A DNA stretch of 64,000 nt from a virus: positions 1 through 64,000 of IMG/VR virus record IMGVR_UViG_3300046011_006646. The stretch is one strand, 5' to 3'. Of the stretch, positions 3,746 to 33,014 are shown piece by piece (the first letter of the stretch is position 1; every line of letters begins with the position of its first letter). A program made the translations under genes and the position numbers. A model generated the notes under the pieces. The model made no database searches. It was not told where the DNA came from and worked only from the letters and a program-made list of their open reading frames with translations.

Positions 3746-3758
3746 CTTTGATATGTAG

Positions 3759-3765
3759 TATTTAT
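3759..3765 (+). promoter_or_regulatory. Candidate late-promoter motif TATTTAT
   Basis: TATTTAT followed by an A-rich leader, 11 bases before the ATG at 3777; no Shine-Dalgarno sequence. Confidence 0.5.
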
Positions 3766-3776
3766 CTATAAAAGAA

Positions 3777-6746: not shown

Positions 6747-6755
6747 TATAAAACA

Positions 6756-6762
6756 TATTTAT
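6756..6762 (+). promoter_or_regulatory. Candidate late-promoter motif TATTTAT
   Basis: TATTTAT then an A-rich leader, 15 bases before the ATG at 6778. Confidence 0.5.
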
Positions 6763-6777
6763 TAAATAAAAAAAACT

Positions 6778-9700
6778 ATGGCAGATAAAAGAATAACCGA
6801 CTTACCTTTAATATTATCTGGTGATATATCAACACAAGATGTATTACCAATAGTAGATGTCAATCTAGACATTACAAATAAAATTGAGGTAGATCAATTA
6901 AAATCATATATATTAACAGGTGTTAATGATTATTATGTTACTGGTGGTACCTATTCTAATGGAACAATAACATTAGGGAGACAAAATGGTTCTTTATCAA
7001 TTAGCGGTTTATACACTGGATCAACAGATGTTTTTGTAACTGGTGGTACCTATGATAACACAACTGGAACATTAACTTTAAAAGATAATAACGGAACGTC
7101 ATTTGGTGTAACTGGATTTACAACTGGTGGTACTGGGACTTCTTTATATGAAGTTGGTTCTGGAACTGACTCAACACAAAGGGTTGGTGTTAATAATGTT
7201 GCAATCGGTAATTGTTCTGCTGTTTTAGCTGGATCCGGAAACACTGTAATATCAGAATTTTCTTTTATTGGTGGAGGTTATAATAATACTGCTGGTTTTA
7301 GTGGTGGTGTTAATTTTGTTTATAATGAAACATTTACAGGTAATATACCTTCATCAGGATTTTACGGTTCAATTCCACCATCATCAACACTTTCCGGTCT
7401 TGGTTCTGGTTCAACTTTTTCATTTTATTTTTCAACTCAAACAACTTTAAGTAATGTTTATGTTGACAATCAAGGTAGTGGATATGTTAGTGGTGATACA
7501 TTAACATTTAACGGTTCAAATTTTGGTGGTGTAACACCTGCCGATAATGTTACAGTTCAAATCAACACATTAGGTGGTTCAAACATCGTTATTGGTGGTG
7601 GTCAAGGAAATACTGCAAATAGAGACTCATCAACAATTAGTGGTGGTTATATAAATAAAAGTAACGCAAACTGCTCAACAATCGGTGGTGGTTGTCGTAA
7701 CATTATTTCAAATGATTCTTGTTACTCAACAATTAGTGGTGGTAGAAGAAATACCGGATACGGTTGTTACGGAGTAATTAGTGGTGGTCGTTGTAATGAA
7801 ACTGGTGCTTATGGTACAATAACTGGAACATTTAATCAAGTGTATACCGGTGGTACTTTAAATGGAACTTTTTCTGGTGGTTATAACCCAACATCAACGA
7901 CATCTGGTTATGGATTTGATGCTTCTTTTGGTTTTGTTTTTAATTTTGGTACTTTATCTAGTGTTAATATTCTTGGTGGTGGTAATCGATATATTGGAAA
8001 TGATACTTTATTTTTTAATGGTAATATATTTCCTGGTGGAACAACTGGTATTGATGATGTAACATTTCAAGTTAGTACATCAATAAATAACTATGCAACA
8101 GTAGCTGGTGGATGTTGTAATACTGCATCTGGTGAATACTCAACAATTAGTGGTGGGTATGAAAATACAGTATCCGGTGATTATTCAACTATTGGTGGGG
8201 GTTCTTGTAACACAATTAATACTAATTCGTGCTATTCAACTATTGGTGGTGGTGATGATAATACTATCCTTCAAGGTGATGTTGCAACAATCAGTGGTGG
8301 TGAAAATAATACGATAAGTGGTGCTTATTCATTTATTGGTGGTGGTTATAATAATATAATAACAAGTTCTGATGCAACAATTGGTGGTGGTTGTAATAAC
8401 ACTGCAAGTGGTTACAAATCATTTATTGGTGGTGGAGAAAATAACGTTTCTGGACGAAATAATTTTGTTAGTGGAATAAATAGTTCTGTATATACTGGTG
8501 GTACTTTAAATAATACTTACGGTGGTATCTCACCAACATCAACATCAAGTGGTACTGGATCTGGGGTATTATTTAGTTTTGATTTTGTTCTTGGTGTATT
8601 ACAAACCATCCAAATACAAAACGGAGGTTCTGGTTATTCTAATGGTGAAACACTATATTTTAACGGTGGATTATTTGGTGGTGGTTCATCTCCTTTAGAT
8701 GATGTTTGGTTAAACATCCAAACAGAAAATAGCACACATACAACCGTAAGTGGCGGCTATTGTAACACATCAAGTGGGGATTACTCAACCGTAAGTGGTG
8801 GATATAGAAACACATCAAGTTGTTATAGTTCAACAGTAAGTGGAGGTATTAATAACAAATCAAGTGGTAATTCTTCAACCGTAGGAGGTGGTCTTGAAAA
8901 TACATCAAGTTGTTGTTATTCAACAGTAAGTGGGGGACGTAGAAATACATCAAGTGGTTATCATTCAACCGTAAGTGGTGGATACCGTAATACATCAAGT
9001 GGTCAATATTCAACCGTAAGTGGCGGACAATTTAACACATCAAGTGGTAATTATTCATTTGTTGGTGGTGGACAATGTAACGCGTCAAACTCTATTAACT
9101 CAACCGTAAGTGGTGGATTTTGTAATACAACAAGTGGAACTTACTCAACAATAGGTGGAGGTAATAATAATAAGTCTAGTGGTGGTTATTCAACACTAAG
9201 TGGTGGTCAAAATAATGTTGCCGGTGGTACACATTCATTTATTGGTAGTGGTTTTGGTAACGTTTCAGGTGTTAATGGATTTGTTACTGGTGTTACAGGT
9301 TTTGTATATACTGGAGGAACATTTAATAGTACATTCACCGGTGTTAGTCCAACTTCAACAAGTAGTGGATTAGGATCCAATGCGTTTTTTAACTTTAGTT
9401 TCCTTGGTGGTGTATTACAAAGTGTTACAGTACAATCAGCAGGATCTGATTATGTAAACGGAGATATACTATATTTTAATGCCGCTTCATTTTTTAGTAC
9501 ATCACCTCTTAATGATGTTTGGATAACAATATCAAGTGCTAGTAATTCATTTACAACAGTAGTTGGTGGTAGTCAAAACACATCAAGTGGATATCTATCA
9601 ATTGTTGGTGCTGGTTATCAAAATACATCAAGTGGTTGTTATTCATTTATTGGTGGTGGATGGTGTAACACAACGGTAGGTGATTGCTCAATGATACTTG

Positions 9701-9936
9701 GTGGTTATGCAAATAAATCTATCGGTACAAGAAGTGCTGTTGTGGGTGGTCAGAATATTGTAGCAACAGAAGATGATATGACATATATGCCAAGTGCGAA
9801 CATCCAATCAACCGGATATATTTATTTTGGAGACGTTAACACAAATGGTTCTTGGAGAATGAGTATATCTGGCGCAACATTTATAATTGAAAAAAGAGTC
9901 GGAGGTGTTTGGGTTGTGTCCGGAACATTCGTATAA
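6778..9936 (+). CDS. Giant tail fibre with YadA-head-type repeats (fibre 1)
   Basis: 1052 aa. The N-terminus (MADKRITDLPLIL, then PIVDV and LKSYI) matches the starts of the fibres at 27546 and 30009 and is probably the tail-attachment part. After LYEVGSGTDSTQR come dozens of ~14-residue units of the form NTSSGxYSTVSGG, the pattern of trimeric autotransporter (YadA) head repeats, so a trimeric beta-solenoid shaft is expected. Four divergent copies of a ~75-residue Ser/Gly-rich beta domain interrupt the shaft (about 7300-7590, 7815-8090, 8450-8730, 9258-9540). The C-terminus (GSWRMSISGATFIIEKR) looks like a small cap or receptor-binding tip. Very Ser/Thr-rich, hence a good glycosylation substrate. 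Confidence 0.82.
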   Translation: MADKRITDLPLILSGDISTQDVLPIVDVNLDITNKIEVDQLKSYILTGVNDYYVTGGTYSNGTITLGRQNGSLSISGLYTGSTDVFVTGGTYDNTTGTLTLKDNNGTSFGVTGFTTGGTGTSLYEVGSGTDSTQRVGVNNVAIGNCSAVLAGSGNTVISEFSFIGGGYNNTAGFSGGVNFVYNETFTGNIPSSGFYGSIPPSSTLSGLGSGSTFSFYFSTQTTLSNVYVDNQGSGYVSGDTLTFNGSNFGGVTPADNVTVQINTLGGSNIVIGGGQGNTANRDSSTISGGYINKSNANCSTIGGGCRNIISNDSCYSTISGGRRNTGYGCYGVISGGRCNETGAYGTITGTFNQVYTGGTLNGTFSGGYNPTSTTSGYGFDASFGFVFNFGTLSSVNILGGGNRYIGNDTLFFNGNIFPGGTTGIDDVTFQVSTSINNYATVAGGCCNTASGEYSTISGGYENTVSGDYSTIGGGSCNTINTNSCYSTIGGGDDNTILQGDVATISGGENNTISGAYSFIGGGYNNIITSSDATIGGGCNNTASGYKSFIGGGENNVSGRNNFVSGINSSVYTGGTLNNTYGGISPTSTSSGTGSGVLFSFDFVLGVLQTIQIQNGGSGYSNGETLYFNGGLFGGGSSPLDDVWLNIQTENSTHTTVSGGYCNTSSGDYSTVSGGYRNTSSCYSSTVSGGINNKSSGNSSTVGGGLENTSSCCYSTVSGGRRNTSSGYHSTVSGGYRNTSSGQYSTVSGGQFNTSSGNYSFVGGGQCNASNSINSTVSGGFCNTTSGTYSTIGGGNNNKSSGGYSTLSGGQNNVAGGTHSFIGSGFGNVSGVNGFVTGVTGFVYTGGTFNSTFTGVSPTSTSSGLGSNAFFNFSFLGGVLQSVTVQSAGSDYVNGDILYFNAASFFSTSPLNDVWITISSASNSFTTVVGGSQNTSSGYLSIVGAGYQNTSSGCYSFIGGGWCNTTVGDCSMILGGYANKSIGTRSAVVGGQNIVATEDDMTYMPSANIQSTGYIYFGDVNTNGSWRMSISGATFIIEKRVGGVWVVSGTFV

Positions 9937-9961
9937 ATAAAATAAAAAAATAAAATAAAAA

Positions 9962-12900
9962 ATGGGATTTAATACAGACATATTAAGTGCAACAACAATA
10001 AGTGGTGGAACATTCTATGGTGATGGTTCCGGATTAGTTGATAACACAATTACCGAAATTATAAATTCACCAACACAGAATCCACTTAATGTTAACACAA
10101 GTAATGATTATTTACCAATTACTGGTAATGACCAATATCAAGATGAAGCAAGTAACTATATTTCTTGGACAAATGGGTCAAATAATGGGACAGGATTTAA
10201 TCCTTGGACCATAACTACACAACCAAATACTGGTGTGTTTTTAGGTAATCCAGCGTCGGATGGTATGGGAACCGCCGGTATTGGAACAAACGCATTTGCT
10301 CTTTTTGCAACTGACGGATCAAATTATGTATCAACATCAAGAACATTTACATCTGGAATGAATGTTGGTGATGTATTTAGTTTTTATTGGGCGATAAATT
10401 TTGACGCAAATGGTGGTAATAAAGGTTTTGATTTAAAAGCTGGTGGTACAACAATTTTTAATGCTAATAATAATAATTCTGCAACAATAACATCAAACTT
10501 ATCTTCACCTAATAACATTATTGATAGTGGTTATGGTACAACACCAATGTTAGTTACTCTAACTAGAACAAGTGATATTCTTTATAATATAACAATAACA
10601 TCTAGAAGTGGTGGACCAACTTATTCTGCATCAATAAATTCACCATTGGTTGTCAATGAAATTAATTTTTATTGTGGTGCTCAAGGTGATGGTTTAGGAC
10701 AAAGGAATTTATTTTTTAATCAACTTTTAATTACAAAAACAACAGAGTTATTAAAAATAACAGTTGATGATTTGGGAAGTTTGTTTGGTGGTGGGTCTTT
10801 ATATGAAGTTGGTTCCGGTACAGACTCAACACAAAGATGTGGTGTTAATAATGTTGCTAGTGGCAATTGTTCTATTGTTGCAGGTGGTGATTATAACACA
10901 TCATTATCACCTTCTTCAGTTATAAGTGGTGGTAAATGTAATACAGCAGACTGTAATTTTTCAACCGTAAGTGGTGGTTATTCTAATAAAACTTATGGTG
11001 GTTGTTCATTTGTAGGTGGCGGTGTTCGTAACACAGCAAGTAATAACTTTTCAATAGTTGGTGGTGGTTGTATCAACACATCAAGTGGTAACTACTCAAC
11101 AATAAGTGGTGGTCGTCAAAATACATCAAGTGATTATTATTCAACCGTAAGTGGCGGTCGTCAAAATACATCAAGTAGTTGTTATTCAACTATAAGTGGT
11201 GGTCGTCAAAATACATCAAGTAGTTGTTATTCAACTATAAGTGGTGGTTATCGTAATGTTTCAGGAATAAACGGAACCGTAAGTGGTGTTTACAATCAAA
11301 CATATTTAGGTAGCACATTAAATGGAACATTTAATTCAATATCTCCATCATCAACATCTTCTGGTTATGGTAATGGTGCAATATTTAATTTTGTTTTTAA
11401 CACCGGAAGTTTATCTACTGTTACTCTTGTAACAATTGGTTCTGGATATGTAAACGGAAATTTATTAACCTTTGACGGAACTTTATTTGGTGGATCAAGT
11501 GGAACCGACGATGTTACATTAAATATTAATACACAAAACATAGGAAATAGTTCAACCGTAAGTGGAGGTCGTGGTAACACATCAATTGGTGGATATTCAA
11601 CCGTAAGTGGGGGTGTTGGTAACACATCAAGTGCGTGTTATTCAACAATAAGTGGTGGAGTAAATAACACATCAAGTTGTAATTATTCATTTGTTGGTGG
11701 AGGTCGCCAAAACACATCAAGTGGTGACCTTTCAACGATTGCCGGTGGTCTTCAAAACGCATCAAGTTGTAAATATTCAACCGTAAGTGGTGGTGCTTTT
11801 AATACATCAAGTAGTGATAATTCATTTATTGGTGGTGGACTTAGAAATACAACAAGTGGACAATATTCAACTATAAGTGGTGGTTATTGTAATGTTTCAG
11901 GAATAAATGGAATCGTAAGTAGTTTTTCTAATCAAACATATTTAGGAAGTACATTAAATGGAACATTTAATTCAATATCTCCATCATCAACATCTTCTGG
12001 TTATGGTAATGGTGCAACATTTAATTTTGTGTTTAACACAGGGAGTTTATCTACTGTTACTCTTGTAACAATTGGTTCTGGATATGTAAATGGAGATTTA
12101 TTAACCTTTGACGGAACTTTATTTGGCGGATCAAGTGGAACCGATGATGTCACTTTAACTATTAACACATCAACAATAGGAAATTGCTCAACCGTAAGTG
12201 GAGGTCGTGGTAACACATCAAGTGGAGATATATCAACCGTTGGTGGTGGTCGTTTTAACACATCAAGTGGAGATATATCAACCGTAAGTGGTGGTTGGCA
12301 AAACACGTCAAGTGGATATAACTCAACAATAAGTGGGGGATATTGTAATACATCAAGTGGATATAACTCAACCGTAAGTGGGGGATGTTGTAATACATCA
12401 AATGGTTGTGGATCATTTATTGGTGGTGGACGAAATAACACAATAAATTGTTTTTTTAATACAATTGGTGGTGGTCAAAATAACACATCAATTGGACAAC
12501 AGTCTATAATTGGTGGTGGTTCTAGTAATGTGGCATTTGGTAGTGCTTCATTTATCGGTGGTGGTAGTCAAAACACATCAAATGGCGGTGGGTCAACTAT
12601 TAGTGGTGGAGTCGCTAACACATCAAGTGGTGATTCTTCAACCGTAAGTGGTGGTCGTTTTAACACATCAATTGGCTGTTGCTCAACCGTAAGTGGTGGT
12701 TATTGTAATGTTTCAGGAATAAATGGAACCGTAAGTGGATTGTATAATCAAACATATTTAGGAAGCACATTAAATGGAACATTTAATTCAATATCTCCAT
12801 CATCAACATCTTCTGGTTATGGTAATGGTGCAACATTTAATTTTTTGTTTAACACAGGAAGTTTATCTACTGTTACTCTTGTAACAATTGGTTCTGGATA

Positions 12901-13555
12901 TGTAAACGGTGATCAATTATTATTTGATGGTACTTTATTTGGTGGATCAAGTGGAACCGATGATGTTACTTTAAATATTAATACACAAACAATAGGAAAT
13001 TGCTCAACAATAGGTGGAGGTCACCAAAACACATCAAACGGAAATTCTTCAACAGTAAGTGGTGGTTATAGAAACACATCAAGTGGTAATTACTCAACCG
13101 TAAGTGGTGGAGTAAATAACACATCAAGTGGAGATATATCAACCGTAAGTGGTGGAGTAAATAACACATCAAGTTGTAATTATTCATTTGTTGGTGGAGG
13201 TTATAATAACACATCAAGTGGTCAATATTCAACAATAAGTGGTGGAGGTTGTAACACATCAAGTAGTGATAATTCATTTATTGGTGGTGGACTTAGAAAT
13301 ACAACAAGTGGACAATATTCAACTATAAGTGGTGGATATCGTAACACGTCAATAAATGTTTATTCGGCAATACTTGGAGGACAAAGTAATACATCCCAAC
13401 ACGATTGTTCATTTATTGTTGGTAGCGGAATTTTTAGTACAGCGGCAAACACAACACACGTAAATTGTTTACACTTTAGTAATATACCAACAAGTTCAGC
13501 GGGTCTTGCTCCAGGAACAGTATGGAATAATGGTGGTGTATTAAACATAGCATAA
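9962..13555 (+). CDS. Giant tail fibre with YadA-head-type repeats (fibre 2)
   Basis: 1197 aa. Its N-terminus (MGFNTDILSATTISGGTFYG) differs from the other fibres. Residues ~60-260 form a lectin-like beta domain (SNYISWTNGSNNGTGFNPWT). After the shared LYEVGSGTDSTQR junction come YadA-head-type NTSSG/STVSGG repeats, broken by three nearly identical copies of the inserted Ser/Gly-rich domain (11254-11545, 11891-12182, 12707-12995). The protein ends in a short cap (GSGIFSTAANTTHVN). It starts 25 bases after fibre 1 and is probably co-transcribed; the two may form one composite fibre or alternative tips. Adhesion role inferred from repeat architecture. Confidence 0.82.
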   Translation: MGFNTDILSATTISGGTFYGDGSGLVDNTITEIINSPTQNPLNVNTSNDYLPITGNDQYQDEASNYISWTNGSNNGTGFNPWTITTQPNTGVFLGNPASDGMGTAGIGTNAFALFATDGSNYVSTSRTFTSGMNVGDVFSFYWAINFDANGGNKGFDLKAGGTTIFNANNNNSATITSNLSSPNNIIDSGYGTTPMLVTLTRTSDILYNITITSRSGGPTYSASINSPLVVNEINFYCGAQGDGLGQRNLFFNQLLITKTTELLKITVDDLGSLFGGGSLYEVGSGTDSTQRCGVNNVASGNCSIVAGGDYNTSLSPSSVISGGKCNTADCNFSTVSGGYSNKTYGGCSFVGGGVRNTASNNFSIVGGGCINTSSGNYSTISGGRQNTSSDYYSTVSGGRQNTSSSCYSTISGGRQNTSSSCYSTISGGYRNVSGINGTVSGVYNQTYLGSTLNGTFNSISPSSTSSGYGNGAIFNFVFNTGSLSTVTLVTIGSGYVNGNLLTFDGTLFGGSSGTDDVTLNINTQNIGNSSTVSGGRGNTSIGGYSTVSGGVGNTSSACYSTISGGVNNTSSCNYSFVGGGRQNTSSGDLSTIAGGLQNASSCKYSTVSGGAFNTSSSDNSFIGGGLRNTTSGQYSTISGGYCNVSGINGIVSSFSNQTYLGSTLNGTFNSISPSSTSSGYGNGATFNFVFNTGSLSTVTLVTIGSGYVNGDLLTFDGTLFGGSSGTDDVTLTINTSTIGNCSTVSGGRGNTSSGDISTVGGGRFNTSSGDISTVSGGWQNTSSGYNSTISGGYCNTSSGYNSTVSGGCCNTSNGCGSFIGGGRNNTINCFFNTIGGGQNNTSIGQQSIIGGGSSNVAFGSASFIGGGSQNTSNGGGSTISGGVANTSSGDSSTVSGGRFNTSIGCCSTVSGGYCNVSGINGTVSGLYNQTYLGSTLNGTFNSISPSSTSSGYGNGATFNFLFNTGSLSTVTLVTIGSGYVNGDQLLFDGTLFGGSSGTDDVTLNINTQTIGNCSTIGGGHQNTSNGNSSTVSGGYRNTSSGNYSTVSGGVNNTSSGDISTVSGGVNNTSSCNYSFVGGGYNNTSSGQYSTISGGGCNTSSSDNSFIGGGLRNTTSGQYSTISGGYRNTSINVYSAILGGQSNTSQHDCSFIVGSGIFSTAANTTHVNCLHFSNIPTSSAGLAPGTVWNNGGVLNIA
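11254..11545 (+). repeat. Inserted fibre domain, near-identical copy A
   Basis: About 290 bases starting at NVSGINGTVSG and ending at DDVTLNINTQ. It is very similar at the nucleotide level to copies at 11891, 12707 and 31866. Confidence 0.8.
11891..12182 (+). repeat. Inserted fibre domain, near-identical copy B
   Basis: Same ~290-base unit as copy A with scattered, mostly silent differences. Confidence 0.8.
12707..12995 (+). repeat. Inserted fibre domain, near-identical copy C
   Basis: Third copy within the same gene. Differences from copies A and B cluster near the end (GDQLLFDG in place of GDLLTFDG). Confidence 0.8.
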
Positions 13556-13572
13556 AATTAAATAAATTTAAA

Positions 13573-14094
13573 ATGAAAAAAGTATTTAAAGATTTTTTAA
13601 ACAAGTATTATAAAGAAAGTTTAGTCAGAAAAAAAGATAAAAATCAAAAAGATTTTGGGTCAAAAGTTAATGATTGTATAGTACAAGTCTACAATAAAAA
13701 TTCTGATAAACAAATAACAAGTAAGGACGTTATTTTACCGTCAGGTTGTTACTCAATGATGTTAGAAACTGAAGATGAAAATGTATTTACAAAATGTTTG
13801 TCTATTTTACCAAATATGAACGATATAATTGTGAGTCAAATTAAAACTTGTATAAAAGGTCAAAACGTTACTTGTGTTAAAGGTGTTGGTTTTACAATAG
13901 AAAAAGCTGGTGATATAATATATACGGATTGTTGTGGTCAAACTAATGCAAATTTTTACAATGAAAATAAATATTTTCTTGATGTTTGTATAAAGAGTGG
14001 TTCACTTTTACCTTATGATAAAAAGGGTAAACCGGCTAGCATTATTAAAATAGAATATGAAAATCAAAAATGTATTTGTGATAGTAAACAATAA
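13573..14094 (+). CDS. Hypothetical Cys-containing protein downstream of fibre 2
   Basis: 173 aa. The N-terminal 30 residues are a Lys-rich helix; the rest is predicted beta-rich, with about ten cysteines (for example TDCCGQ and KCICD near the end). It begins 17 bases after fibre 2 and continues the same transcript. No family recognised. A fibre chaperone, cap or small structural protein would suit the position, but nothing in the sequence proves it. Confidence 0.6.
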   Translation: MKKVFKDFLNKYYKESLVRKKDKNQKDFGSKVNDCIVQVYNKNSDKQITSKDVILPSGCYSMMLETEDENVFTKCLSILPNMNDIIVSQIKTCIKGQNVTCVKGVGFTIEKAGDIIYTDCCGQTNANFYNENKYFLDVCIKSGSLLPYDKKGKPASIIKIEYENQKCICDSKQ

Positions 14095-14112
14095 ATCAAA
14101 AATAAAACAAAA

Positions 14113-14295
14113 ATGGAAATTAAATTATTATTTAAGTATGAAGAACCAAAACAAATTGGTGAACACAAGGTAATTGCAATTAGACAAGTACCAAGAGGAA
14201 TTAGATTTAGAACTGAAAATGGACCAATCCTTAAAGAAGTTGCATTTAAAGAAACTTGGACTGAAGAAGAATTGCACGCATTATTATTAAGTTAA
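14113..14295 (+). CDS. Small hypothetical protein
   Basis: 60 aa with a beta-strand-rich core (HKVIAIRQVPRGIRFRTENG) and an acidic C-terminal helix (TWTEEELHALLLS). It starts after an A-rich leader 18 bases from the previous stop and is followed at once by a strong terminator, which supports it as the last gene of the fibre 1 to 14295 transcript. Function not recognised. Confidence 0.6.
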   Translation: MEIKLLFKYEEPKQIGEHKVIAIRQVPRGIRFRTENGPILKEVAFKETWTEEELHALLLS

Positions 14296-14300
14296 TAAAC

Positions 14301-14330
14301 AAAACCCCACCTTTAAAAGTGGGGTTTTTT
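14301..14330 (+). terminator. Rho-independent terminator after the first fibre transcript
   Basis: AACCCCAC (14303-14310) pairs with GTGGGGTT (14319-14326) and a T run follows. It separates the fibre genes from the glycan-enzyme genes. Confidence 0.88.
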
Positions 14331-14365
14331 ATACACTTTTTTGTTACAAATAATATAATTGTATT

Positions 14366-15106
14366 ATGTTTGTAACAGTATGTAATAAAGAATACCTCAT
14401 AGGATTTGAGGTAATGTTAAAATCTTTAATAGATAATAATCCAAGAGTTGTTACTGATAATTTACCATTTGTAATTATTACAAACGATTTAAACCCTGAA
14501 GATTTAGTCACCTCAAGAACAATTTATAATAATATACATATAAAAAGATTTGACGAATCAAAATATTCACAAATAGAGGAATTAAAAAAACAACAAATGG
14601 CATTTGGTGATTATACCAAATATGAAATTTTTTCTTTGACCGAATTTAAAAAAATTATATTTTTAGACTCCGATACAATAATATTAGGAAACATTGATTA
14701 CCTTATTGATTTTAAAGAACCATTTGGTTGTGTGAGAGAATTATTTATTGATCAATATAACACCGGTGTTATGGTAATCGAAAATAAATATTTAAATCCA
14801 AAAATTACAGAAGATTTAATCAATCTAACAAACATTTATGGTATTACAGAACATTTAGATCAGGACATAATAAATAATTATTTTATTGATGTTATCACGC
14901 CAATTCCATTGGAATACAACTATCTTAAAATATATTCAAAACAAATTTTTCAAAACACCGGACTTCCGGAGTATATTAAAATAATTCATTATGTTGTTAA
15001 AAAACCTTGGCAACAAAAACCATTGGTAATATTAGAAGAAGGAACACTATGGACCGAAAGATATTGGTTTGAGTATTATTCAAAAGTACTAAAGTTAAAA
15101 ATATAA
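14366..15106 (+). CDS. Glycosyltransferase family 8-like (glycogenin-type)
   Basis: 246 aa, GT-A fold. The metal- and nucleotide-sugar-binding DxD is D101-S-D103 in IIFLDSDTIILGNID. Further GT8 hallmarks are the first strand MFVTVCNKEYLIGFEVMLKS, the acceptor-side YNTGVMVIENK, HLDQDIIN, and the C-terminal HYVVKKPWQ with the His-x-Lys-Pro-Trp element. It would transfer a sugar, retaining its configuration, from a UDP-sugar to a glycan or protein. First gene of a six-gene run whose neighbours overlap or are a few bases apart. Acceptor unknown; the adjacent Ser/Thr-rich fibres are the favoured inference. Confidence 0.82.
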   Translation: MFVTVCNKEYLIGFEVMLKSLIDNNPRVVTDNLPFVIITNDLNPEDLVTSRTIYNNIHIKRFDESKYSQIEELKKQQMAFGDYTKYEIFSLTEFKKIIFLDSDTIILGNIDYLIDFKEPFGCVRELFIDQYNTGVMVIENKYLNPKITEDLINLTNIYGITEHLDQDIINNYFIDVITPIPLEYNYLKIYSKQIFQNTGLPEYIKIIHYVVKKPWQQKPLVILEEGTLWTERYWFEYYSKVLKLKI

Positions 15107-16014
15107 TGGTTAAAAGACATTACGGACAACACGAGCTATTGGAGTATGTTGAATTAGATAAAGACGCTCAAACATTAGAAGGAAAAGTAATTTTAATGCA
15201 CTTTGATTCTTTTTGTCTTGGCGATACAATTTGTTTTTCCTCTTTTATTGACGCTTTTCTTGATTATCACAAACCAAAAAAAGTAATTATCTCAACATTT
15301 TTTATACACTTATTCAAATCAACGGATGAAAGATATGAATTTATTAACGCAAATCAAAAATTAAAATTAACTGTTGATAAATTAATTGATGTTGGTTACG
15401 ATAAAAATAGTTTAGAAGATACAAAAGGTGGTATGATGTGGGCAACAAAAAGAACAATGATGTTACCACAAGAAACAAAACCTAGAAAATGTCCGGTTAT
15501 TCCATATGAAAGAAAAATAATCCCAAATAAAATAACAATTGCACCAGAGTCATTAAAAAAAATTGCTCAGTGGAACCATTTTGGAAATTACGGTTGGCAA
15601 TCATTGGTAAATGAAATTGTAAATTCTGGATTTGTGGTTTCAAATGTTTCATACGAAAATACAATGAATTTACAAAATGTAACTGGTTTTCACGGTCACG
15701 ATGATATTAGGGTTGCATTAAATGAAATTTTATCATCACGAGTATTTGTGGGATTATCTTCTGGACTTGCTTGGCTTGCTTGGGCTTACGGTGTTCCGGT
15801 TGTTATGATTTCTGGCTTTACAAAAGAACATAATGAATTTAATTGTTATAGAGTTACAAATAAACTTTCTTGTAATGGTTGTTTTAATTTATTTCAAAAT
15901 ATACAATCAACTTGTCCTTTATTTTTGGGTACCGATAGAGAAAATGAGTGTCATAAATCAATTACACCACAAATGGTTATTGACAAAATAAACGAAGCTC
16001 TTAAATTTAATTAA
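15106..16014 (+). CDS. TibC/BAHT-like autotransporter O-heptosyltransferase (GT9-related)
   Basis: 302 aa. The C-terminal half carries the signature of the bacterial autotransporter heptosyltransferase family (TibC, AAH). It has GWQSLVNEI, VSYENT, the donor-site block RVFVGLSSGLAWLAWAYGVP followed by VVMISGFTKEHNEFN, a four-cysteine metal finger (C256, C259, C270, C282) and SITPQMVIDKI. In known members the finger binds iron and the enzyme adds heptose to Ser in strand-loop-strand repeats of adhesins such as TibA and AIDA-I. It is shorter at the N-terminus than TibC. The start overlaps the GT8 stop by one base. Its location beside adhesin-type phage fibres suggests they are the acceptors; the actual donor sugar is not known. 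Confidence 0.8.
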   Translation: MVKRHYGQHELLEYVELDKDAQTLEGKVILMHFDSFCLGDTICFSSFIDAFLDYHKPKKVIISTFFIHLFKSTDERYEFINANQKLKLTVDKLIDVGYDKNSLEDTKGGMMWATKRTMMLPQETKPRKCPVIPYERKIIPNKITIAPESLKKIAQWNHFGNYGWQSLVNEIVNSGFVVSNVSYENTMNLQNVTGFHGHDDIRVALNEILSSRVFVGLSSGLAWLAWAYGVPVVMISGFTKEHNEFNCYRVTNKLSCNGCFNLFQNIQSTCPLFLGTDRENECHKSITPQMVIDKINEALKFN

Positions 16015-16019
16015 AAATT

Positions 16020-16904
16020 ATGGAAAAAAAATATAGTGTATTTCACATAGAGGGTGGTCTTGGTAAACATGTTTTAGCAACAGCAGTTGCAAGATGTATT
16101 AAAAATAATCATCCGGATAGAGAACTAATTGTTGTTTGTGCTTATCCAGAAATTTATCTTAATTTAGATTTTGTTAATCGTGTGTATAGATTAGGTAACA
16201 CACCTTATTTTTATGACGATTATATAAATGAAAAAGATAGTTTAATTTTCAAACACGAACCGTACTTTACTGAAGATCATATTCATAAAAAATTATCATT
16301 AATCCAAAACTGGTGTAAATTATTTAACCTTGAGTATAGTAATGAAAAACCAGAACTTGTTTTTAATTTAAGACAACAACAAATTGGTATTAATAAATGG
16401 CAAAGACAAAGACCAATTATGGTTATTCAAACAAACGGTGGACCATTAAATGACCAACCGTATCCGTATTCTTGGACAAGAGATATACCTATGGACACTG
16501 CTCAACAAATTGTAAATTCATTTAAAGACTATTATCATATAATTCAAATTTGTAGACACGAATCAAATGCTCTTCAAGGTGTTGAGGTAATTAAAGAACC
16601 GATGTCAAATATGGAATTATTTTCACTTCTTTTATTTTCACAAAAAAGATTGTTAATTGATTCTTGTTTACAACATGCCGCAGCAGCGCTTGGTTTACAA
16701 TCAACAGTTCTTTGGGTTGGTACATCACCAAAAGTATTTGGTTATAATTTACATAATAATATTGTAGCACAACTACCAAACACAGTCAAACTTCCGGATA
16801 GTTATTTATTTGACTATAACTTTAATGGAATGGTTCACGAATGTCCGTTATTTGACACAAACATCTTTAACATAAACGAAATAATAGAATCACTAAAAAA
16901 TTAA
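16020..16904 (+). CDS. GT9-like glycosyltransferase (GT-B fold)
   Basis: 294 aa. The N-terminus FHIEGGLGKHVLATAVARCI is the glycine-rich first loop of heptosyltransferase-like GT-B enzymes, and the region LLIDSCLQHAAAALGLQSTVLWVGTSP (about residues 215-240) matches the GT9 donor-binding segment (D-S-x-x-x-H-A-A-A). It lacks the four-cysteine finger of the preceding gene. Five bases separate it from the upstream stop, so both enzymes are probably made together. Likely role: a second transfer step on the same glycan. Donor and acceptor unknown. Confidence 0.72.
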   Translation: MEKKYSVFHIEGGLGKHVLATAVARCIKNNHPDRELIVVCAYPEIYLNLDFVNRVYRLGNTPYFYDDYINEKDSLIFKHEPYFTEDHIHKKLSLIQNWCKLFNLEYSNEKPELVFNLRQQQIGINKWQRQRPIMVIQTNGGPLNDQPYPYSWTRDIPMDTAQQIVNSFKDYYHIIQICRHESNALQGVEVIKEPMSNMELFSLLLFSQKRLLIDSCLQHAAAALGLQSTVLWVGTSPKVFGYNLHNNIVAQLPNTVKLPDSYLFDYNFNGMVHECPLFDTNIFNINEIIESLKN

Positions 16905-16905
16905 A

Positions 16906-17724
16906 ATGGTACAAAAAATTTTCTTTCAAAGCTCACTACCTAGAGCAGGGTCTACATTACTACAAAATGTAATGGGTCAAAATCCAGATTTTTACGTTAC
17001 ACCAACATCAGGTGTATTAGAACTTGTATATGCCGCAAGAGCAAATTACACTTCATCACCAGAATTTAAAGCACAAGATACTCAACTAATGAGAGAAGGG
17101 TTTTTAAATTTTTGTAATCAAGGTGTTCAAGGTTTTTTTAATGCTGTAACGGATAAACCCTATGTTTTAGATAAAAGTAGGGGTTGGGGTGTTCATTACG
17201 GATTTTTAAATTCATTTTATCCTAACCCAAAAGTAATTTGTATGGTTAGAGATTTAAGAGGAATTTTTGCATCTATGGAAAAAAACTTTAGAAAAAATCA
17301 ACATATGGATTCTGGAATTGTAAATCACGCACAAATGCAAGGAACAACAACAGAAAAAAGAATTGATATTTGGGCACAGTCACAACCGGTAGGATTAGCA
17401 ATAGAAAGGTTACATCAAATTTTTAAAGAAGGTAACAATCAAAAAATGTTATTTGTTAAGTTTGAGGATTTTTCATCAAACCCAAAAAAAGAAATGGAAC
17501 GTATCTATCAATACTTGGAATTACCTTATTATGAACATGATTTTAATAATGTTCAACAAATTACACAAGAAGATGACAGTGTGTATGGAATTTATGGTGA
17601 CCATAAAATAAAAAGTAAAATAGAACCATTAAAACCAGATTATAAAGAAGTTTTGGGTGTTAACGCATCTAACTGGGTTAAATCTAATTATCAATGGTTT
17701 TATGATCAATTTGGATATTTTTGA
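16906..17724 (+). CDS. PAPS-dependent sulfotransferase
   Basis: 272 aa. The 5'-phosphosulfate loop is SLPRAGSTLLQNVM (residues ~10-23, R13-x-G-S-T). The 3'-phosphate site is CMVRDLRGIFASM (R115 and S123). FEDF and the following helix fit the family fold. It would move a sulfuryl group from PAPS to a hydroxyl, most likely on a carbohydrate. One base separates it from the GT9-like gene and three from APS kinase, which makes PAPS, so a dedicated sulfation step is well supported by context. There is no membrane anchor, so it acts in the host cytoplasm before virion release. The acceptor is not shown by the sequence. Confidence 0.85.
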   Translation: MVQKIFFQSSLPRAGSTLLQNVMGQNPDFYVTPTSGVLELVYAARANYTSSPEFKAQDTQLMREGFLNFCNQGVQGFFNAVTDKPYVLDKSRGWGVHYGFLNSFYPNPKVICMVRDLRGIFASMEKNFRKNQHMDSGIVNHAQMQGTTTEKRIDIWAQSQPVGLAIERLHQIFKEGNNQKMLFVKFEDFSSNPKKEMERIYQYLELPYYEHDFNNVQQITQEDDSVYGIYGDHKIKSKIEPLKPDYKEVLGVNASNWVKSNYQWFYDQFGYF

Positions 17725-17727
17725 TTT

Positions 17728-18183
17728 ATGAAAGAGAAAAAAATATATTGGTTTACCGGACAACCTGGTGCTGGAAAAACGGTGTTATCTTTAAGATTAA
17801 AAAAGTATTTAGAACAAGAATATGGACAAGAAGTATTCCATATTGATGGTGATGAGTTAAGAGTTTTATTTAAAAACATAAACTACGGTAGAGAAGGTCG
17901 TGAGGAAAATATAAAAAGAGCTCAAGATATTGCAAAATTTATTCACTCACAAGGTTATGATGTAATTGTTAGTTTAGTTGCACCATATAAAGAAATGAGG
18001 GAAAGTTTTAAGTATGATTTAAAAAATTTACTAGTTGAGTTTTATGTTCACACAACAGACATTAGAGGTAGAGAACATTTTCACACGGATGAATATGAAG
18101 GTCCTACAGAAAATTTTGTAGATATTGATACAACAAATGTTGATCCACAAATATCATTAAACGAAATAATCAAACACATATGA
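17728..18183 (+). CDS. cysC: Adenylylsulfate (APS) kinase
   Basis: 151 aa, slightly shorter than usual (~175-200). Walker A is GQPGAGKT (residues 11-18); HIDGDELR and the NYGREGREENIKRAQDIAKF block are typical of CysC, as is VSLVAPYKEMRE. The residues around the end of the usual Lys-Asp-x-Lys-Gly-Leu segment are missing or replaced (HTDEYEGPTENFVDI), as in other short members. It catalyses ATP + APS to ADP + PAPS, the donor for the sulfotransferase immediately upstream. APS must come from the host or another gene, since no CysD/CysN is in the window. Its TGA overlaps the next ATG by 4 bases. Confidence 0.85.
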   Translation: MKEKKIYWFTGQPGAGKTVLSLRLKKYLEQEYGQEVFHIDGDELRVLFKNINYGREGREENIKRAQDIAKFIHSQGYDVIVSLVAPYKEMRESFKYDLKNLLVEFYVHTTDIRGREHFHTDEYEGPTENFVDIDTTNVDPQISLNEIIKHI

Positions 18184-18632
18184 GTTGGGAAAAGAAAAAT
18201 TATGGGGGGGATCCAACAACAAATGAAAGTAAAAAATATGCAATTTTTATTGGCCGTTATCAACCACCACATTTTGGGCATTTAGAGTTATTTGAACAAA
18301 AACTAAAACAAGGAGTTCCAATTTTAATTATGGTTAGGGATATTGAACCAGATGAAAAAAATCCTTTTACAACAGAGCAAACAGTGTTTTTATTGGAAAA
18401 ATATTTTTCAAATAAAAAATTAGATGTTAAGGTTATGGTTATTCCTGATATTGAGTCGGTAAATTTTGGTCGTGGTGTTGGTTATGAGGTTAATGAATTT
18501 ATACCACCAAAAGACATTGGTGGGATTTCAGCAACTGGAATTAGAAATTCCATTAAAAATAAAGATGATTATTGGAAAAAAATGATAGACGAATCAATCC
18601 AAAACGATATTTTTAATTTTTTGACTAATTAA
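18180..18632 (+). CDS. HxGH nucleotidyltransferase (NMNAT/cytidylyltransferase-like)
   Basis: 150 aa. The N-terminal FIGRYQPPHFGHLELFEQ contains the T/HxGH-type nucleotide site, and GGISATGIRNSI is the C-terminal ISxTxIR element of NMN adenylyltransferase-like enzymes. The fold activates a phosphate-containing substrate by adding AMP or CMP. It overlaps the APS kinase gene by 4 bases, which points to the same pathway: making an activated sugar or a step near sulfate activation. A role in NAD synthesis is the main alternative. It is not a classical ATP sulfurylase. The last 39 bases overlap the end of the convergent endonuclease gene. Confidence 0.72.
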   Translation: MSWEKKNYGGDPTTNESKKYAIFIGRYQPPHFGHLELFEQKLKQGVPILIMVRDIEPDEKNPFTTEQTVFLLEKYFSNKKLDVKVMVIPDIESVNFGRGVGYEVNEFIPPKDIGGISATGIRNSIKNKDDYWKKMIDESIQNDIFNFLTN

Positions 18633-24133: not shown

Positions 24134-25378
24134 ATGAATACCATATTTGTTCAAATCGCATCATTTAGAGATCCCCAACTTAATCCGACAATTAAAGATA
24201 TGTTGGAAAATGCCAAATACCCAGAGAATTTAAGAATAGGAATTTGTAATCAATATAATCCGGAAGACGAATTTAATTTAGATAAATTCAGAGATGATGA
24301 TAGATTTAGAATTGATGATGTTTTAGATAAAGATTCACAAGGTGTTTGTTGGGCTCGCCACAAAGTACAACAAATGTATAGTGGAGAAACTTACACATTA
24401 CAGATTGATTCTCATATGCGTTTTGAAAAAGATTGGGACAAGACTCTAATTGAAATGTTAAAGGGGTTACAAGATAAAGGATATAAGAAACCATTACTTA
24501 CAGGTTATGTATCTTCTTTTGATCCGGAAAATGACCCAAAAGGAAGAGTAACGGAACCTTGGAGAATGGCTTTTGATAGATTTACACCGGAAGGTTGTGT
24601 TTTCTTTTTACCTGAAACAATACCAGGATGGAAAGAATTAAAAGAACCAATTACATCAAGATTTTATTCAGCACATTTTTGTTTTACATTAGGTGAATTT
24701 TCAGTTGAGGTTCAACACGATCCAAATTATTATTTTCACGGAGAAGAAATATCAATTGCTGTTAGGGCATACACTTACGGATATGATTTGTTTCACCCAC
24801 ATAAAGTTGTTATCTGGCACGAATATACAAGAAAGGGAAGAACAAAACATTGGGATGTTGATTCGGAGTGGTATAAGAAAAATGACGCATCACATAAAAG
24901 AAATAGAGAACTATTGGGAATTGATGGTTTAGTATTTTCTGGTGATAGTTCATTATATTTTGGTACCGAAAGAACAATTAGAGATTATGAAAAATATTCC
25001 GGAATTCTTTTTGAGAAAAGAGCTGTACAACAATATACAATAGATAAAAAATACTCACCAAATCCATACGAATATAAAACAGAAGAAGAATGGAAGGATA
25101 GTTTCCTTTCAATATTTAAACATTGTATTGACCTTTCATTTGATATGGTTAAAGAAACAGATTATGATTTTTGGGTTGTTGCATTTCATAATGGTAAAGA
25201 TGAAACATTATATAGAAGAGATGCCGACCAAAATGAGATTGCAATGATGATGAAAGATCCAGATAGATATTGTAAAATATGGAGAGAGTTTAATACAACG
25301 GAAAGACCAAAGTATTGGGTGGTTTGGCCACATAGTACATCAAAAGGTTGGTGTGATAGAATAACTGGGAATTTATGA
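24134..25378 (+). CDS. GT60-like polypeptide/glycan GlcNAc transferase
   Basis: 414 aa. The N-terminal 110 residues match the GlcNAc (GT60, Skp1-type) family: IFVQIASFRDPQLNPTIKDM, then RIGICNQYN, VCWARHKVQQMYSGE, and TLQIDSHMRF with the D-x-H metal site at residues 92-94. Known eukaryotic members add GlcNAc to hydroxyproline or Thr of proteins. The C-terminal ~110 residues (SPNPYEYKTEEEWKDSFLS onward) are a separate unknown domain. Its TGA overlaps the next ATG. The gene follows three proteins with Thr-Pro linkers, so these are attractive acceptors. Family call good; donor and acceptor inferred. Confidence 0.8.
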   Translation: MNTIFVQIASFRDPQLNPTIKDMLENAKYPENLRIGICNQYNPEDEFNLDKFRDDDRFRIDDVLDKDSQGVCWARHKVQQMYSGETYTLQIDSHMRFEKDWDKTLIEMLKGLQDKGYKKPLLTGYVSSFDPENDPKGRVTEPWRMAFDRFTPEGCVFFLPETIPGWKELKEPITSRFYSAHFCFTLGEFSVEVQHDPNYYFHGEEISIAVRAYTYGYDLFHPHKVVIWHEYTRKGRTKHWDVDSEWYKKNDASHKRNRELLGIDGLVFSGDSSLYFGTERTIRDYEKYSGILFEKRAVQQYTIDKKYSPNPYEYKTEEEWKDSFLSIFKHCIDLSFDMVKETDYDFWVVAFHNGKDETLYRRDADQNEIAMMMKDPDRYCKIWREFNTTERPKYWVVWPHSTSKGWCDRITGNL

Positions 25379-27039
25379 TTACATTAGTAACTGGTCTTTG
25401 GGATATTGGTAGAGGTGAATTATCTGATGGGTGGTCAAGATCATTTGATCACTATTTAGATAAATTTTCACAACTATTAAAGGTTGATAACAATATGATA
25501 ATTTTTGGTGATCAGAAATTAAAAGAGTTTGTTTTTAAATATAGAACAGAGGAAAATACTCAATTTATATTAAAACCAGTTGATTGGTTTAAAAACAACG
25601 AGTTTTATGAATTAATCCAAAACATTAGAAAAAATCCATCTTGGTATAATCAAGTAGGTTGGTTAAAAGAGTCAACACAAGCAAGACTTGAGATGTATAA
25701 TCCACTTGTTATGTCAAAGATGTTTTTATTACACGACGCAAAACTTTTAGATAAGTTTGATTCAAAATTATTATACTGGATTGATGCCGGACTAACAAAC
25801 ACGGTACATCCTGGATATTTTACACACGACAAAGTTTTAGATAAGATACCAAAATTATTTAAAAAATTCACATTTGTTTGTTTTCCATATAAAGCAGAAA
25901 CAGAAGTTCACGGATTTAAATATGATAAGATGTGTGAGTTATCCGGAAAAAATACAGAAATAGTTGCTCGTGGTGGATTTTTTGGTGGAGATAAAGATTC
26001 AATATCACAGATGAATGTTCTTTATTATAACTTGATGATGGAAACATTAAAGTCTGGTTTAATGGGAACAGAAGAATCTTTATTTACAATTCTTCTATAT
26101 CAAAATCCATCACTTATTGATTATTGTGAAATAGAATCAAATGGATTACTATATAAATTTTTTGAGGATGTTAAAAATGATAAGGTTGTATTAAAAAATA
26201 AAGGAAAGAAAATTGTGACAAATTATAATGGTGACGTTGGTTTATATGTAATTACATTTAACTCACCAAAACAATTTGAAGTTTTAATAAAATCAATGTT
26301 GGATTATGATTCAAATTTTATTCATAAGACCAAAAAGTTTTTACTGGATAATTCAACCGATCTTTCAACAACTCCGAGGTATAGAGAACTATGTGAAAAT
26401 TACAATTTTCAACACATTAAAAAGAATAACATTGGTATAACCAGAGGTAGAGTTTTTGTTGCCGAACATTTTAACGAACAAGAAAATTTATCACATTATT
26501 TTTTCTTTGAGGATGATTTTGGTTTCTATTCCGGAAAAGATATTACCTGTAAAAACGGTTTTATAAGAAAAATTAATAATATATATGAAAAAACTTTAGA
26601 AATAATTAAAAAAGAAAATTTTGACTATTTAAAATTGAATTTTACCGAATTTTATGGTTCTCACAATAAACAATGGAGTTGGTATAATGTAAGTCAACAA
26701 TATAGAGAAAGTCACTGGCCAAACAACCCAAAGTTACCAAAACAAGGACTTGACCCAAATTCACCAAATCTTGAATTTAAACATATACAATCACATAAAG
26801 GATTGGCCTATGTTTCTGGTGAAATTTATTTATCCAACTGGCCAATATTAATGACAAAGGAAGGAAATTATAATTGTTATATTAAAACAAAATTCCAACA
26901 TCCATACGAACAGACTTTAATGTCAAATTGTTATCAAGAAATAATTAAAGGAAATATTAATCCAGGATTACTTCTTGCAACACCAACAGAACACAATCGT
27001 TTTGATTTTTATGAATCTTCATTAAGAAAAGAGTGTTAA
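25375..27039 (+). CDS. Two-domain glycosyltransferase: HtrL/YibB-like plus GT-A
   Basis: 554 aa. Residues ~1-275 resemble the HtrL/YibB family (ITLVTGLWDIGRGELSDGWS, YLDKFSQLLKVDNNMIIFGD, LLYWIDAGLTN with W-x-DAG, and MGTEESLFTILLY). Residues ~280-554 start a second, GT2-like domain (GLYVITFNSPKQFEVLIKSM) with an acidic EDDF in YFFFEDDFGFYSG as the probable metal site. Overlaps the GT60-like gene by 4 bases and is surely co-translated with it. Two catalytic domains in one chain suggest two successive sugar additions. Nothing identifies the sugars. Confidence 0.7.
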   Translation: MITLVTGLWDIGRGELSDGWSRSFDHYLDKFSQLLKVDNNMIIFGDQKLKEFVFKYRTEENTQFILKPVDWFKNNEFYELIQNIRKNPSWYNQVGWLKESTQARLEMYNPLVMSKMFLLHDAKLLDKFDSKLLYWIDAGLTNTVHPGYFTHDKVLDKIPKLFKKFTFVCFPYKAETEVHGFKYDKMCELSGKNTEIVARGGFFGGDKDSISQMNVLYYNLMMETLKSGLMGTEESLFTILLYQNPSLIDYCEIESNGLLYKFFEDVKNDKVVLKNKGKKIVTNYNGDVGLYVITFNSPKQFEVLIKSMLDYDSNFIHKTKKFLLDNSTDLSTTPRYRELCENYNFQHIKKNNIGITRGRVFVAEHFNEQENLSHYFFFEDDFGFYSGKDITCKNGFIRKINNIYEKTLEIIKKENFDYLKLNFTEFYGSHNKQWSWYNVSQQYRESHWPNNPKLPKQGLDPNSPNLEFKHIQSHKGLAYVSGEIYLSNWPILMTKEGNYNCYIKTKFQHPYEQTLMSNCYQEIIKGNINPGLLLATPTEHNRFDFYESSLRKEC

Positions 27040-33000: not shown

Positions 33001-33014
33001 GGTATTTAATTTAA
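30009..33014 (+). CDS. Giant tail fibre with YadA-head-type repeats (fibre 4)
   Basis: 1001 aa. Attachment-type N-terminus (MANKRISQLPYVGNTGYTSN, PIVNYDV, LKAYI), then DYYVTGGTYSGGTLVLDRQN shared with fibre 1, then YadA-head-type repeats. It carries the block shared with fibre 3 and one copy of the inserted domain (31866-32155) almost identical in DNA to those of fibre 2. The C-terminal ~110 residues (ITSSQTLTWDKVYWGVSGSS onward) form a distinct beta cap resembling cap domains of other phage fibres. Likely host-binding. Confidence 0.82.
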   Translation: MANKRISQLPYVGNTGYTSNDIMPIVNYDVSSGTTKNTPLVDLKAYILSGSTDYYVTGGTYSGGTLVLDRQNGSVTINGFTTGTTLYEVGSGVDSTQRIGVNNDASGDYSTVSGGRQNTSSGYYSFIGGGQQNLITGYTATISGGYLNTSSGCYSFIGGGVANNVTNIKSTVGGGGCNTSSGYYSTISGGRLNKSSNCGSTVSGGGRNTSSNYNSTVSGGYCNTSSGDNSTVSGGRSNTASNYNSTVSGGYSNTSSGYASFVGGGVNNTSSGDCSTVGGGRNNTSNGPGNFIGGGLANFTDNKFSTVSSGYRNTSSGGYATVGGGFCNTSNGDFSVIGGGRENTSQNDFASVFAGSGNTASGYYSIIGSGIKNTNNSDLGFLGGGFCNTSSGYDGVLGGGGCNTLNNLLGGVIAGGRLNTVVGIAPNTIGGGFGNNIFAFGPSTISGGYLNTTRSDYSTVGGGSLNTIDSITTQSGYYVFGSSIGGGSCNTISSYSASYDSFGNTIAGGTCNVTVSSYSNGQTIGGGYRNTTLCDYATVSGGYRNTSSGNISTVSGGINNASSGNISTVSGGRCNTSSGNSSTVSGGRNNTSSGDYSTVSGGYRNTSSGSGSFIGGGENNVSGINGTVSGVYNQTYTGGTLNGTFNSISPSSTSSGYGNGATFNFVFNTGILTTVNLVTIGSGYVNGDLLTFDGTLFGGSSGTDDVTLNINTQTIGPFSTVSGGVNNTSSGKYSTVSGGVNNTSSGDNSFIGGGVCNTSIGAASFIGGGVRNTSSGQYSFIGGGLRNTSNGNSSTISGGYRNTSSGIYSFIGTGECNTIDSAYSVVNGGVNNTSLNIYNSILGGSGNTINHDFSSAVGKDVTSVSACTFHVNYLALQNTPETDSTNNNFLVRDTSTGILKTRDISQSANYSTSAITSSQTLTWDKVYWGVSGSSNVDLTLPTTTSKDGYFLIIKDESGTSGSFRIRLTPASGLIDGNSYVDMNINYMSLTIMVRNGNWYLI
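31395..31595 (+). repeat. Fibre block shared with fibre 3 (copy 2)
   Basis: Counterpart of 28200-28405, with frequent identical stretches around TCATATAGCAATGGTCAAAC. Confidence 0.7.
31866..32155 (+). repeat. Inserted fibre domain, near-identical copy D
   Basis: Same unit as 11254, 11891 and 12707, about 19 kb away in a different fibre gene. Confidence 0.8.

Follow-up and report, generated by a model that had tools for sequence, protein, structure and literature searches.

Which molecule is modified by the sugar- and sulfate-transfer enzymes of an uncultured phage whose genes sit between those of adhesin-like tail fibres? The question is raised by the virus record IMGVR_UViG_3300046011_006646, of which a stretch of 64,000 nucleotides (hereafter the window) was analysed. 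The features that matter here are the following.

6778..9936, + strand: tail fibre with UspA1/YadA-head-like beta-roll repeats, candidate acceptor (1052 aa, 31 GG..N motifs, LbR_Ice_bind 1.1e-9)
9962..13555, + strand: second fibre of the same type, candidate acceptor (1197 aa, 39 GG..N motifs)
13573..14094, + strand: 173-aa ORF between fibre and GT8, function not assigned (present in few relatives)
14366..15106, + strand: GT8 glycosyltransferase (PF01501 E 5e-22, DxD as LDSD)
15106..16014, + strand: BAHT/TibC-like GT9-fold protein, 302 aa (four-Cys finger, divergent donor site, N-terminal barrel absent, thumb shortened)
16020..16904, + strand: GT9L, a second GT9-fold enzyme, assigned by fold (together with the sulfotransferase, the gene most often found near such fibres in other phages)
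16906..17724, + strand: sulfotransferase (PF13469 E 1.5e-21, PAPS 5' motif PRAGST)
17728..18183, + strand: APS-kinase family protein, probable PAPS supply (PF01583 E 2.5e-20, P-loop/Walker A GQPGAGKT, DGD)
18180..18632, + strand: HxGH nucleotidyltransferase, NMNAT-like (fused to a kinase in some relatives; perhaps sulfate or nucleotide activation)
24134..25378, + strand: GlcNAc-transferase family protein, farther along the same fibre module (PF11397 E 2.6e-67)
25375..27039, + strand: HtrL/YibB family protein (PF09612 E 9.8e-22)
27546..29972, + strand: third beta-roll fibre (808 aa, 43 GG..N motifs)
30009..33014, + strand: fourth beta-roll fibre (1001 aa, 39 GG..N motifs)

Further large tail proteins (at 3777 and 20503) and P/T-rich proteins belong to the same module, whose other tail proteins include PTPTPT-rich and PKD/DUF285 types.

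A sequence-only reading of this DNA had described two giant fibres of YadA-head type followed by a BAHT-like enzyme together with a GT8 and a second GT9-like enzyme, and this description holds. That reading passed over the two further fibres at 27546 and 30009 and the sulfate half of the set, the sulfotransferase and the APS kinase, as well as the nucleotidyltransferase, the GlcNAc-transferase-family protein and the HtrL/YibB protein. Exact 15-residue GG..N units number 22 in the first fibre and 36 in the second, for which 0.05 would be expected from shuffled sequence, and the beta-roll fibres of the window have 22-41 units each. The second fibre matches the head of the trimeric autotransporter adhesin UspA1 (PDB 3PR7; E 2.9e-24), and beta-roll head repeats are thus common to the phage proteins and to adhesins of the YadA type. 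Unlike trimeric autotransporters, it is a phage fibre, and the Pfam scan detected no C-terminal YadA membrane anchor family, as expected for such a protein. A tblastn search of isolate phages with the fibre repeat gave no match, although the low-complexity filter may hide matches, and the fibres proved too variable in alignment to be scanned for with a profile.

The sulfotransferase (78.1 bits against a PF13469 cut-off of 27) and the APS kinase (73.5 bits against a PF01583 cut-off of 21.1; under the TIGR00455 equivalog cut-off) belong to the same families as NoeE-type carbohydrate sulfotransferases and the APS kinases of PAPS synthesis, with the nucleotide motifs kept. The 5' PAPS motif is retained in 32 of 33 relatives of the sulfotransferase. 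In contrast to their known counterparts, the phage pair is linked to fibres. In an alignment made by eye, GT9L has a lysine at the position of the GT9 catalytic aspartate.

Most members of the window's clade retain the order fibre, GT8, BAHT, GT9L, sulfotransferase, APS kinase, individual parts being lost in some. An in-locus permutation within this clade alone was weak, since its loci consist largely of fibre genes. A fibre-first search, with the fibre repeat as query and hence blind to the enzymes, returned 12 other records. Eight of them have GT9L, 8 have a sulfotransferase, in one case at the end of a contig, and 3 have a BAHT gene; the enzymes lie mostly close to the fibre, at times on the opposite strand. 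Among 16 tail-sheath relatives lacking beta-roll fibres, neither GT9L nor the sulfotransferase was found (0/16 each). After removal of a near-duplicate the comparison is 8/15 versus 0/16 (Fisher p 0.0008), for records with and without fibres that are not matched for ancestry. Three sheath relatives that are fragments (G002, G003, G016) carry beta-roll fibres, and GT9L, sulfotransferase and BAHT were not detected in them. In a search that started from GT9L, 22 of the 41 dereplicated loci had a beta-roll fibre no more than 4 kb away (11.9 expected) and 32 had a sulfotransferase (20.4 expected). Contiguous fibre-GT9L-sulfotransferase runs were seen at L395, L401, L405, L411, L416, L419 and L421, and such runs occur also in phages without BAHT. 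The constant partner of these fibres is therefore the pair of GT9L and sulfotransferase, and the BAHT gene is an add-on; an obligate BAHT partnership is ruled out by the 3 of 12 in the fibre-first search.

Since similar sets recur beside the same fibre type in many uncultured phages, phages with such sets probably decorate their own fibres with sugars, which may be sulfated. For the window, we give roughly even odds (about 0.5) to the reading that 14366-18632 is a cytoplasmic cassette modifying the phage's own beta-roll tail fibres. What is observed are the genes present, their families, folds and motifs, the conservation of their order, and their repeated occurrence next to this kind of fibre in different phages. 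Weighing against the reading are the lysine of GT9L in place of the catalytic aspartate, the loss of the TibC donor residue Lys-230 in the BAHT-like protein, and the three fibre-bearing sheath relatives in which the enzymes were not detected. From the linkage we infer the fibre as acceptor; the order of steps, the donor sugar, the sulfation with its site and the benefit are put forward in the same conditional sense. In the host cytoplasm, GT9L and/or the BAHT-like enzyme would place a sugar on repeated Ser/Thr of fibre repeats that have just been synthesised, and the GT8 and the other GT9-fold enzyme would add or extend further sugars. The sulfotransferase, drawing on PAPS supplied with the help of the APS kinase, might then add a sulfate cap to the glycan (or to the protein) before the decorated fibres are assembled into the virion. 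Such a charged coat could stabilise the repeats, guard them against proteolysis or adjust how the fibre binds its receptor. More tentatively, and short of an even chance, many uncultured phages may carry a modular cassette of GT9L and sulfotransferase, joined by a BAHT-like protein, GT8, APS kinase and others, that makes sulfated glycans on adhesin-head-like fibres and in which an enzyme of the TibC family has been adapted to a new donor.

Serine at repeat position 7 was considered as a signature of the acceptor. Its median is 0.41 in the BAHT-bearing clade versus about 0.07 in loci with GT9L and without BAHT. However, it is equally high at L345 and L350, where no BAHT was found, and low at other BAHT-bearing loci. 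We thus attribute the excess to descent, and the signature was dropped.

In temperate phages, genes that modify a receptor next to genes that bind it are a familiar pattern. It is therefore conceivable, though we consider it unlikely, that the cassette alters the host surface (LPS, capsule or a surface protein) and so blocks superinfection or rebinding of progeny, its place near the fibres reflecting that both concern the receptor. In phages, genes for changing the host surface are often neighbours of receptor-binding genes, and the GT8, GT9 and NoeE-like sulfotransferase families include enzymes of envelope or signal glycans. Nevertheless, in differing phage backgrounds, and whichever way they are oriented, the enzymes accompany a single structural type of fibre. 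Moreover, the cassette is without a transmembrane or flippase component, no convincing transmembrane helix being present in any of its enzymes, and one of them comes from a family whose substrates are adhesin beta-repeats: TibC glycosylates adhesin passengers built of repeated beta-strands (PMC4358343).

That family membership was claimed for the 302-aa protein at 15106 and is borne out by profile, sequence and fold. TIGR04414 (hepto_Aah_TibC) is by far its best family (123.7 bits, E 8.6e-36), under the curated equivalog cut-off of 200 bits, versus 11.5 bits (E 0.19) for generic Pfam GT9; TibC was the sole match in a phmmer search of the PDB (1e-16) and the closest structure to the predicted model in Foldseek (E 4e-18, TM 0.74-0.80), followed by LPS heptosyltransferase II (7e-8). 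A generic GT9 origin is thus ruled out. The cysteines C256, C259, C270 and C282 align with Cys-339/342/358/370 of the TibC iron finger and are invariant in the 136 of 136 representatives examined. The catalytic Asp-110 and the heptose-binding Trp-305 of TibC correspond to Asp-40 and Trp-223, which are kept in all members. With the TibC/AAH enzymes (PDB 4RAP, 4RB4) the protein therefore shares the GT9 fold, the finger, both of these residues and an adjoining gene for an adhesin-like protein of repeated beta-strands. Unlike them, it is encoded by a phage, its substrate would be a tail fibre, and the donor residues Thr-226, Lys-230 and Arg-286 are replaced by Leu-150, Ala-154 and Ala-204. The Lys-230 position is Ala/Ser in 12 of 12 representatives of the window clade and Lys in 123 of the 124 other members; the Arg-286 position varies in other phage members too. 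In TibC, changing Lys-230 to Ala abolished or largely diminished activity in cells. The N-terminal beta-barrel (residues 1-97 in TibC), which TibC requires for activity, is missing: the catalytic domain is preceded by about 23 residues, and PF21129 gave no match. Most of the beta-hairpin thumb, whose hydrophobic tip serves dodecamer assembly in TibC, is also missing (9 residues vs 17), and Phe-368 is Asn/His in the window clade.

A TibC-type ADP-heptose site is not supported by these residues, and the donor is probably bound otherwise than ADP-heptose in TibC. The protein is a divergent BAHT relative and a candidate transferase rather than a demonstrated heptosyltransferase. Consequently, of the proposal that the phage turns an adhesin-glycosylating enzyme on its own fibres, the BAHT kinship stands, as does, for most of the clade, the conserved arrangement of the genes beside adhesin-head-like fibres, whereas TibC-type heptosyltransferase function and BAHT as a constant fibre partner do not.

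These losses also suit a protein that has ceased to be a glycosyltransferase and serves as a fibre-binding chaperone or adaptor, with the sugar chemistry left to GT9L and GT8. There is precedent in BimC of Burkholderia, an iron-binding BAHT-family protein, reportedly without transferase activity, that binds its autotransporter BimA (PMC6439308). Both BimC and the phage protein are BAHT relatives encoded beside a YadA-related adhesin, with activity that may be altered or lost; the likeness is drawn from the description of BimC, and the phage setting differs in its other glycosyltransferases and sulfotransferase. Across most or all of the clade Lys-230 and Thr-226 have been lost, and its branch is long (2.23), yet the finger cysteines do not vary. 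In contrast, Asp-40 and Trp-223 are retained in all members, and a new conserved motif, E-S/T-x-K-x-I-A/S-x-W, in which a lysine stands three residues upstream, speaks for remodelling of the donor site and not for decay. We therefore regard an adaptor as improbable, slightly more so than a host-surface role. Least likely, the enzymes act on another virion or host molecule (for example the PTPTPT-rich or PKD/DUF285 tail proteins, or a small molecule) with the beta-roll fibres as bystanders, for which the other large tail proteins, the P/T-rich proteins and the downstream PF11397 protein could speak, but the GT9L-sulfotransferase pair accompanies the beta-roll fibre where these other proteins were not detected.

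Glycosylation of phage virions as such is already known. According to PMC12619734, which cites Freeman et al. 2023, mycobacteriophage capsids and tail tubes bear glycans attributed to phage glycosyltransferases. The phage's own virion proteins would be the carriers in both cases, here as judged from the genes; unlike in the mycobacteriophages, fibres are the putative target, and for the mycobacteriophages the text consulted mentions neither a BAHT-type enzyme nor sulfation. In agreement with the sequence-only reading, which knew of no such phage system, we found no precedent in the openly licensed literature for a BAHT-type enzyme or a sulfotransferase acting on phage fibres, or for glycosylated phage fibres.

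If own-fibre decoration is correct, the host-recognition fibres of these phages would be sulfated glycoproteins whose behaviour is not predictable from sequence alone, and recombinant fibres made without the cassette might behave differently than in the virion. It would also suggest what phage sulfotransferases and APS kinases are for, genes commonly classed as auxiliary metabolic ones. At least hundreds of viral contigs would be added to the TibC/AAH family, which is familiar from the adhesins of bacteria, and would provide a natural series of donor-site variants. In other phages, BAHT-type genes have a repeat-rich ORF within 3 kb in 35 of 88 cases (13.4 expected), and BAHT domains near Gly/Ser/Thr-rich ORFs frequently occur as fusions with GT4, GT2 or methyltransferase domains.

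The virus record containing the window is 64.7 kb long and has a tail of myovirus type, with a sheath gene at 45694 (Pfam Phage_sheath) whose product resembles the sheaths of T4-like phages. Its fibre module occupies about 3.8-34 kb, largely on the + strand. Exact 15-residue GG..N beta-roll units number 22-41 per protein in 6778, 9962, 27546 and 30009 (ORFs are named by start position), against 0.05 in shuffled 9962 sequence, and fibre 9962 matches the head of UspA1, a trimeric autotransporter adhesin, with E 2.9e-24. The following genes lie among those of the fibres:

14366: GT8
15106-16014: protein like the bacterial autotransporter heptosyltransferases (BAHT), 302 aa
16020-16904, + strand: second GT9-like protein (GT9L)
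16906: sulfotransferase
17728: APS-kinase family protein
18180: NMNAT-like nucleotidyltransferase
after the 18180 gene, still between fibres: PF11397 protein, then HtrL/YibB protein

The reading that joins sequence, predicted structure and gene neighbourhood is that the cassette (14366-18632) may form a production line in the cytoplasm, decorating the fibres of the phage itself with sugars and sulfate. The GT9-fold enzymes would start or extend a glycan on the fibre, GT8 would extend it and the sulfotransferase would cap it, with PAPS partly supplied by the APS kinase. No convincing transmembrane segments were found in the cassette enzymes. The main rival is modification of the host surface, since receptor-modifying genes can also adjoin fibre genes. 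The neighbourhoods of related fibres bear on this choice. When other phages were searched with the fibre repeat alone, so that the enzymes played no part in the selection, GT9L was found in 8/12 other fibre records, the sulfotransferase in 8/12 (one a fragment at a contig end) and BAHT in 3/12, among the matches listed and with two near-duplicates (G030 and G031) in the twelve. Neither GT9L nor the sulfotransferase occurred in any of 16 tail-sheath relatives of this phage without beta-roll fibres. Five records from the sheath search did have fibres, including the window's own virus; two carried both enzymes, and the other three, all fragments, carried neither. The comparison of 8/15 with 0/16 gives p 0.0008 (Fisher's test) for records unmatched for ancestry. 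The enzymes thus track one fibre type and not tails generally, which argues against the host-surface explanation without settling the matter.

Among the matches listed in a search with GT9L, 41 loci after dereplication, 22 have a beta-roll fibre no more than 4 kb away (11.9 expected) and 32 have a sulfotransferase within that distance (20.4 expected); viral contigs are mainly fragments, related loci are not independent and the in-locus permutation expectations are crude. Seven of these loci have fibre, GT9L and sulfotransferase consecutively, without BAHT or GT8, and in loci L357-L359 fibre and enzymes lie on opposite strands. From both searches and this either-strand placement, it seems that fibre, GT9L and sulfotransferase have stayed together, or come together anew, in a variety of settings. 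In the window's clade (its BAHT-like protein and closest relatives, 12 representatives), BAHT and GT8 appear to have been added.

GT9L itself is a candidate glycosyltransferase predicted by fold. A PDB sequence search with it returned zero matches; its model (pLDDT 87.6) has a GT9 fold, matching a Veillonella GT9 (6e-10), heptosyltransferase II (2e-9) and TibC (3e-9), and profiles indicate distant kinship to the BAHT-like family (93% probability). Its chemistry is putative, because alignment by eye puts an invariant Lys-16 at the place of the GT9 catalytic Asp.

The sequence-only reading had assigned the 15106 protein to BAHT, and at family level this was right. It matches NCBIfam TIGR04414 over nearly the full chain (123.7 bits, E 8.6e-36, below the curated cut-off of 200), with only a noise-level score for Pfam GT9. 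The best structural match of its AlphaFold2 model (pLDDT 90.8) is TibC (E 4e-18, TM-score about 0.8); LPS heptosyltransferase II reaches only 7e-8. In 136/136 representatives the finger cysteines are invariant, and so are the catalytic Asp and the Trp that corresponds to Trp-305.

The donor site departs from that of TibC, which binds the beta-phosphate through Thr-226 and Lys-230 and the adenine through Arg-286; in TibC, alanine changes at 110, 230, 286 or 305 abolish or largely diminish glycosylation (PMC4358343). The Lys-230 position is Ala/Ser in 12/12 representatives of the window's clade, and Lys is retained in 78/79 other phage and 45/45 bacterial members; Thr-226 is replaced by Leu/Ile in 10/12. 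STxxAKxW gives way to a clade-specific E-S/T-x-K-x-I-A/S-x-W, with Lys three positions earlier. Compared with TibC, the protein also lacks the N-terminal barrel, having about 23 residues upstream, and its thumb has 9 residues instead of 17. In the tree, the clade forms one side of a long, fully supported branch. Judged from sequence, these changes could mean that the donor site was remodelled or that catalysis was lost. The latter would suit a second rival, a non-catalytic fibre partner, for which BimC is a precedent: this BAHT-family protein reportedly lacks transferase activity yet binds its autotransporter (PMC6439308).

BAHT relatives are encoded on at least 540 and at least 557 viral stretches in two profile scans. 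All 60 diverse phage proteins scanned matched TIGR04414 (best E 4.6e-100); more than half also carry a GT4-type domain, and some methyltransferase or GT2 domains. Outside the window's clade, 35/88 dereplicated viral loci have, within 3 kb of the BAHT gene, an ORF in which Gly/Ser/Thr/Asn make up at least 50% of the residues (13.4 expected when drawing another ORF of the same locus), and sulfotransferase and APS kinase co-occur in six further BAHT phages. Phage locus L346 (G008, 3-8889) has a 1446-aa ORF of GTSGTN repeats (92% Gly/Ser/Thr/Asn) close to the gene of a BAHT-domain protein of 1219 aa. L348 (G009, 317-12347) has two BAHT-family genes adjoining what looks, by eye, like a pathway for amino-sugar nucleotides, with genes for an aminotransferase, an acetyltransferase and an oxidoreductase. 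The BAHT genes G030:C1:69368-70216 and G031:C1:5311-6159 are each listed with one in-frame TGA within the match; the genes may be frameshifted or broken, the assembly may be in error, or TGA may be recoded.

Within the window, the overlapping kinase and nucleotidyltransferase genes (17728-18632) both match one fused PHROG, phrog_10255. The nucleotidyltransferase, for which sulfate activation is a conceivable role, seems fused to a kinase in L424 and L434, and L008 and L026 have it and lack the sulfotransferase. The large tail protein at 3777-6746 contains a PTPTPT stretch and a C-terminal papain-like cysteine peptidase domain (PF00112 1.6e-5; PHROG peptidase 3e-55), and that at 20503-24084 (1193 aa) has DUF285 in six stretches (E 3.3e-160) and matches PKD weakly. 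Most relatives lack an oppositely oriented 284-aa ORF in the module (18594-19448, - strand), which by eye looks like an insertion of homing-endonuclease type; its one Pfam match, DUF7487, is below cut-off. Amid tail and neck genes, a 699-aa protein (39474-41573, - strand) combines an iron/manganese superoxide dismutase domain (Sod_Fe_C E 4.6e-39) with a weakly matching SprT-like metallopeptidase-like N-terminus, and a similar 699-aa ORF is present in L347.
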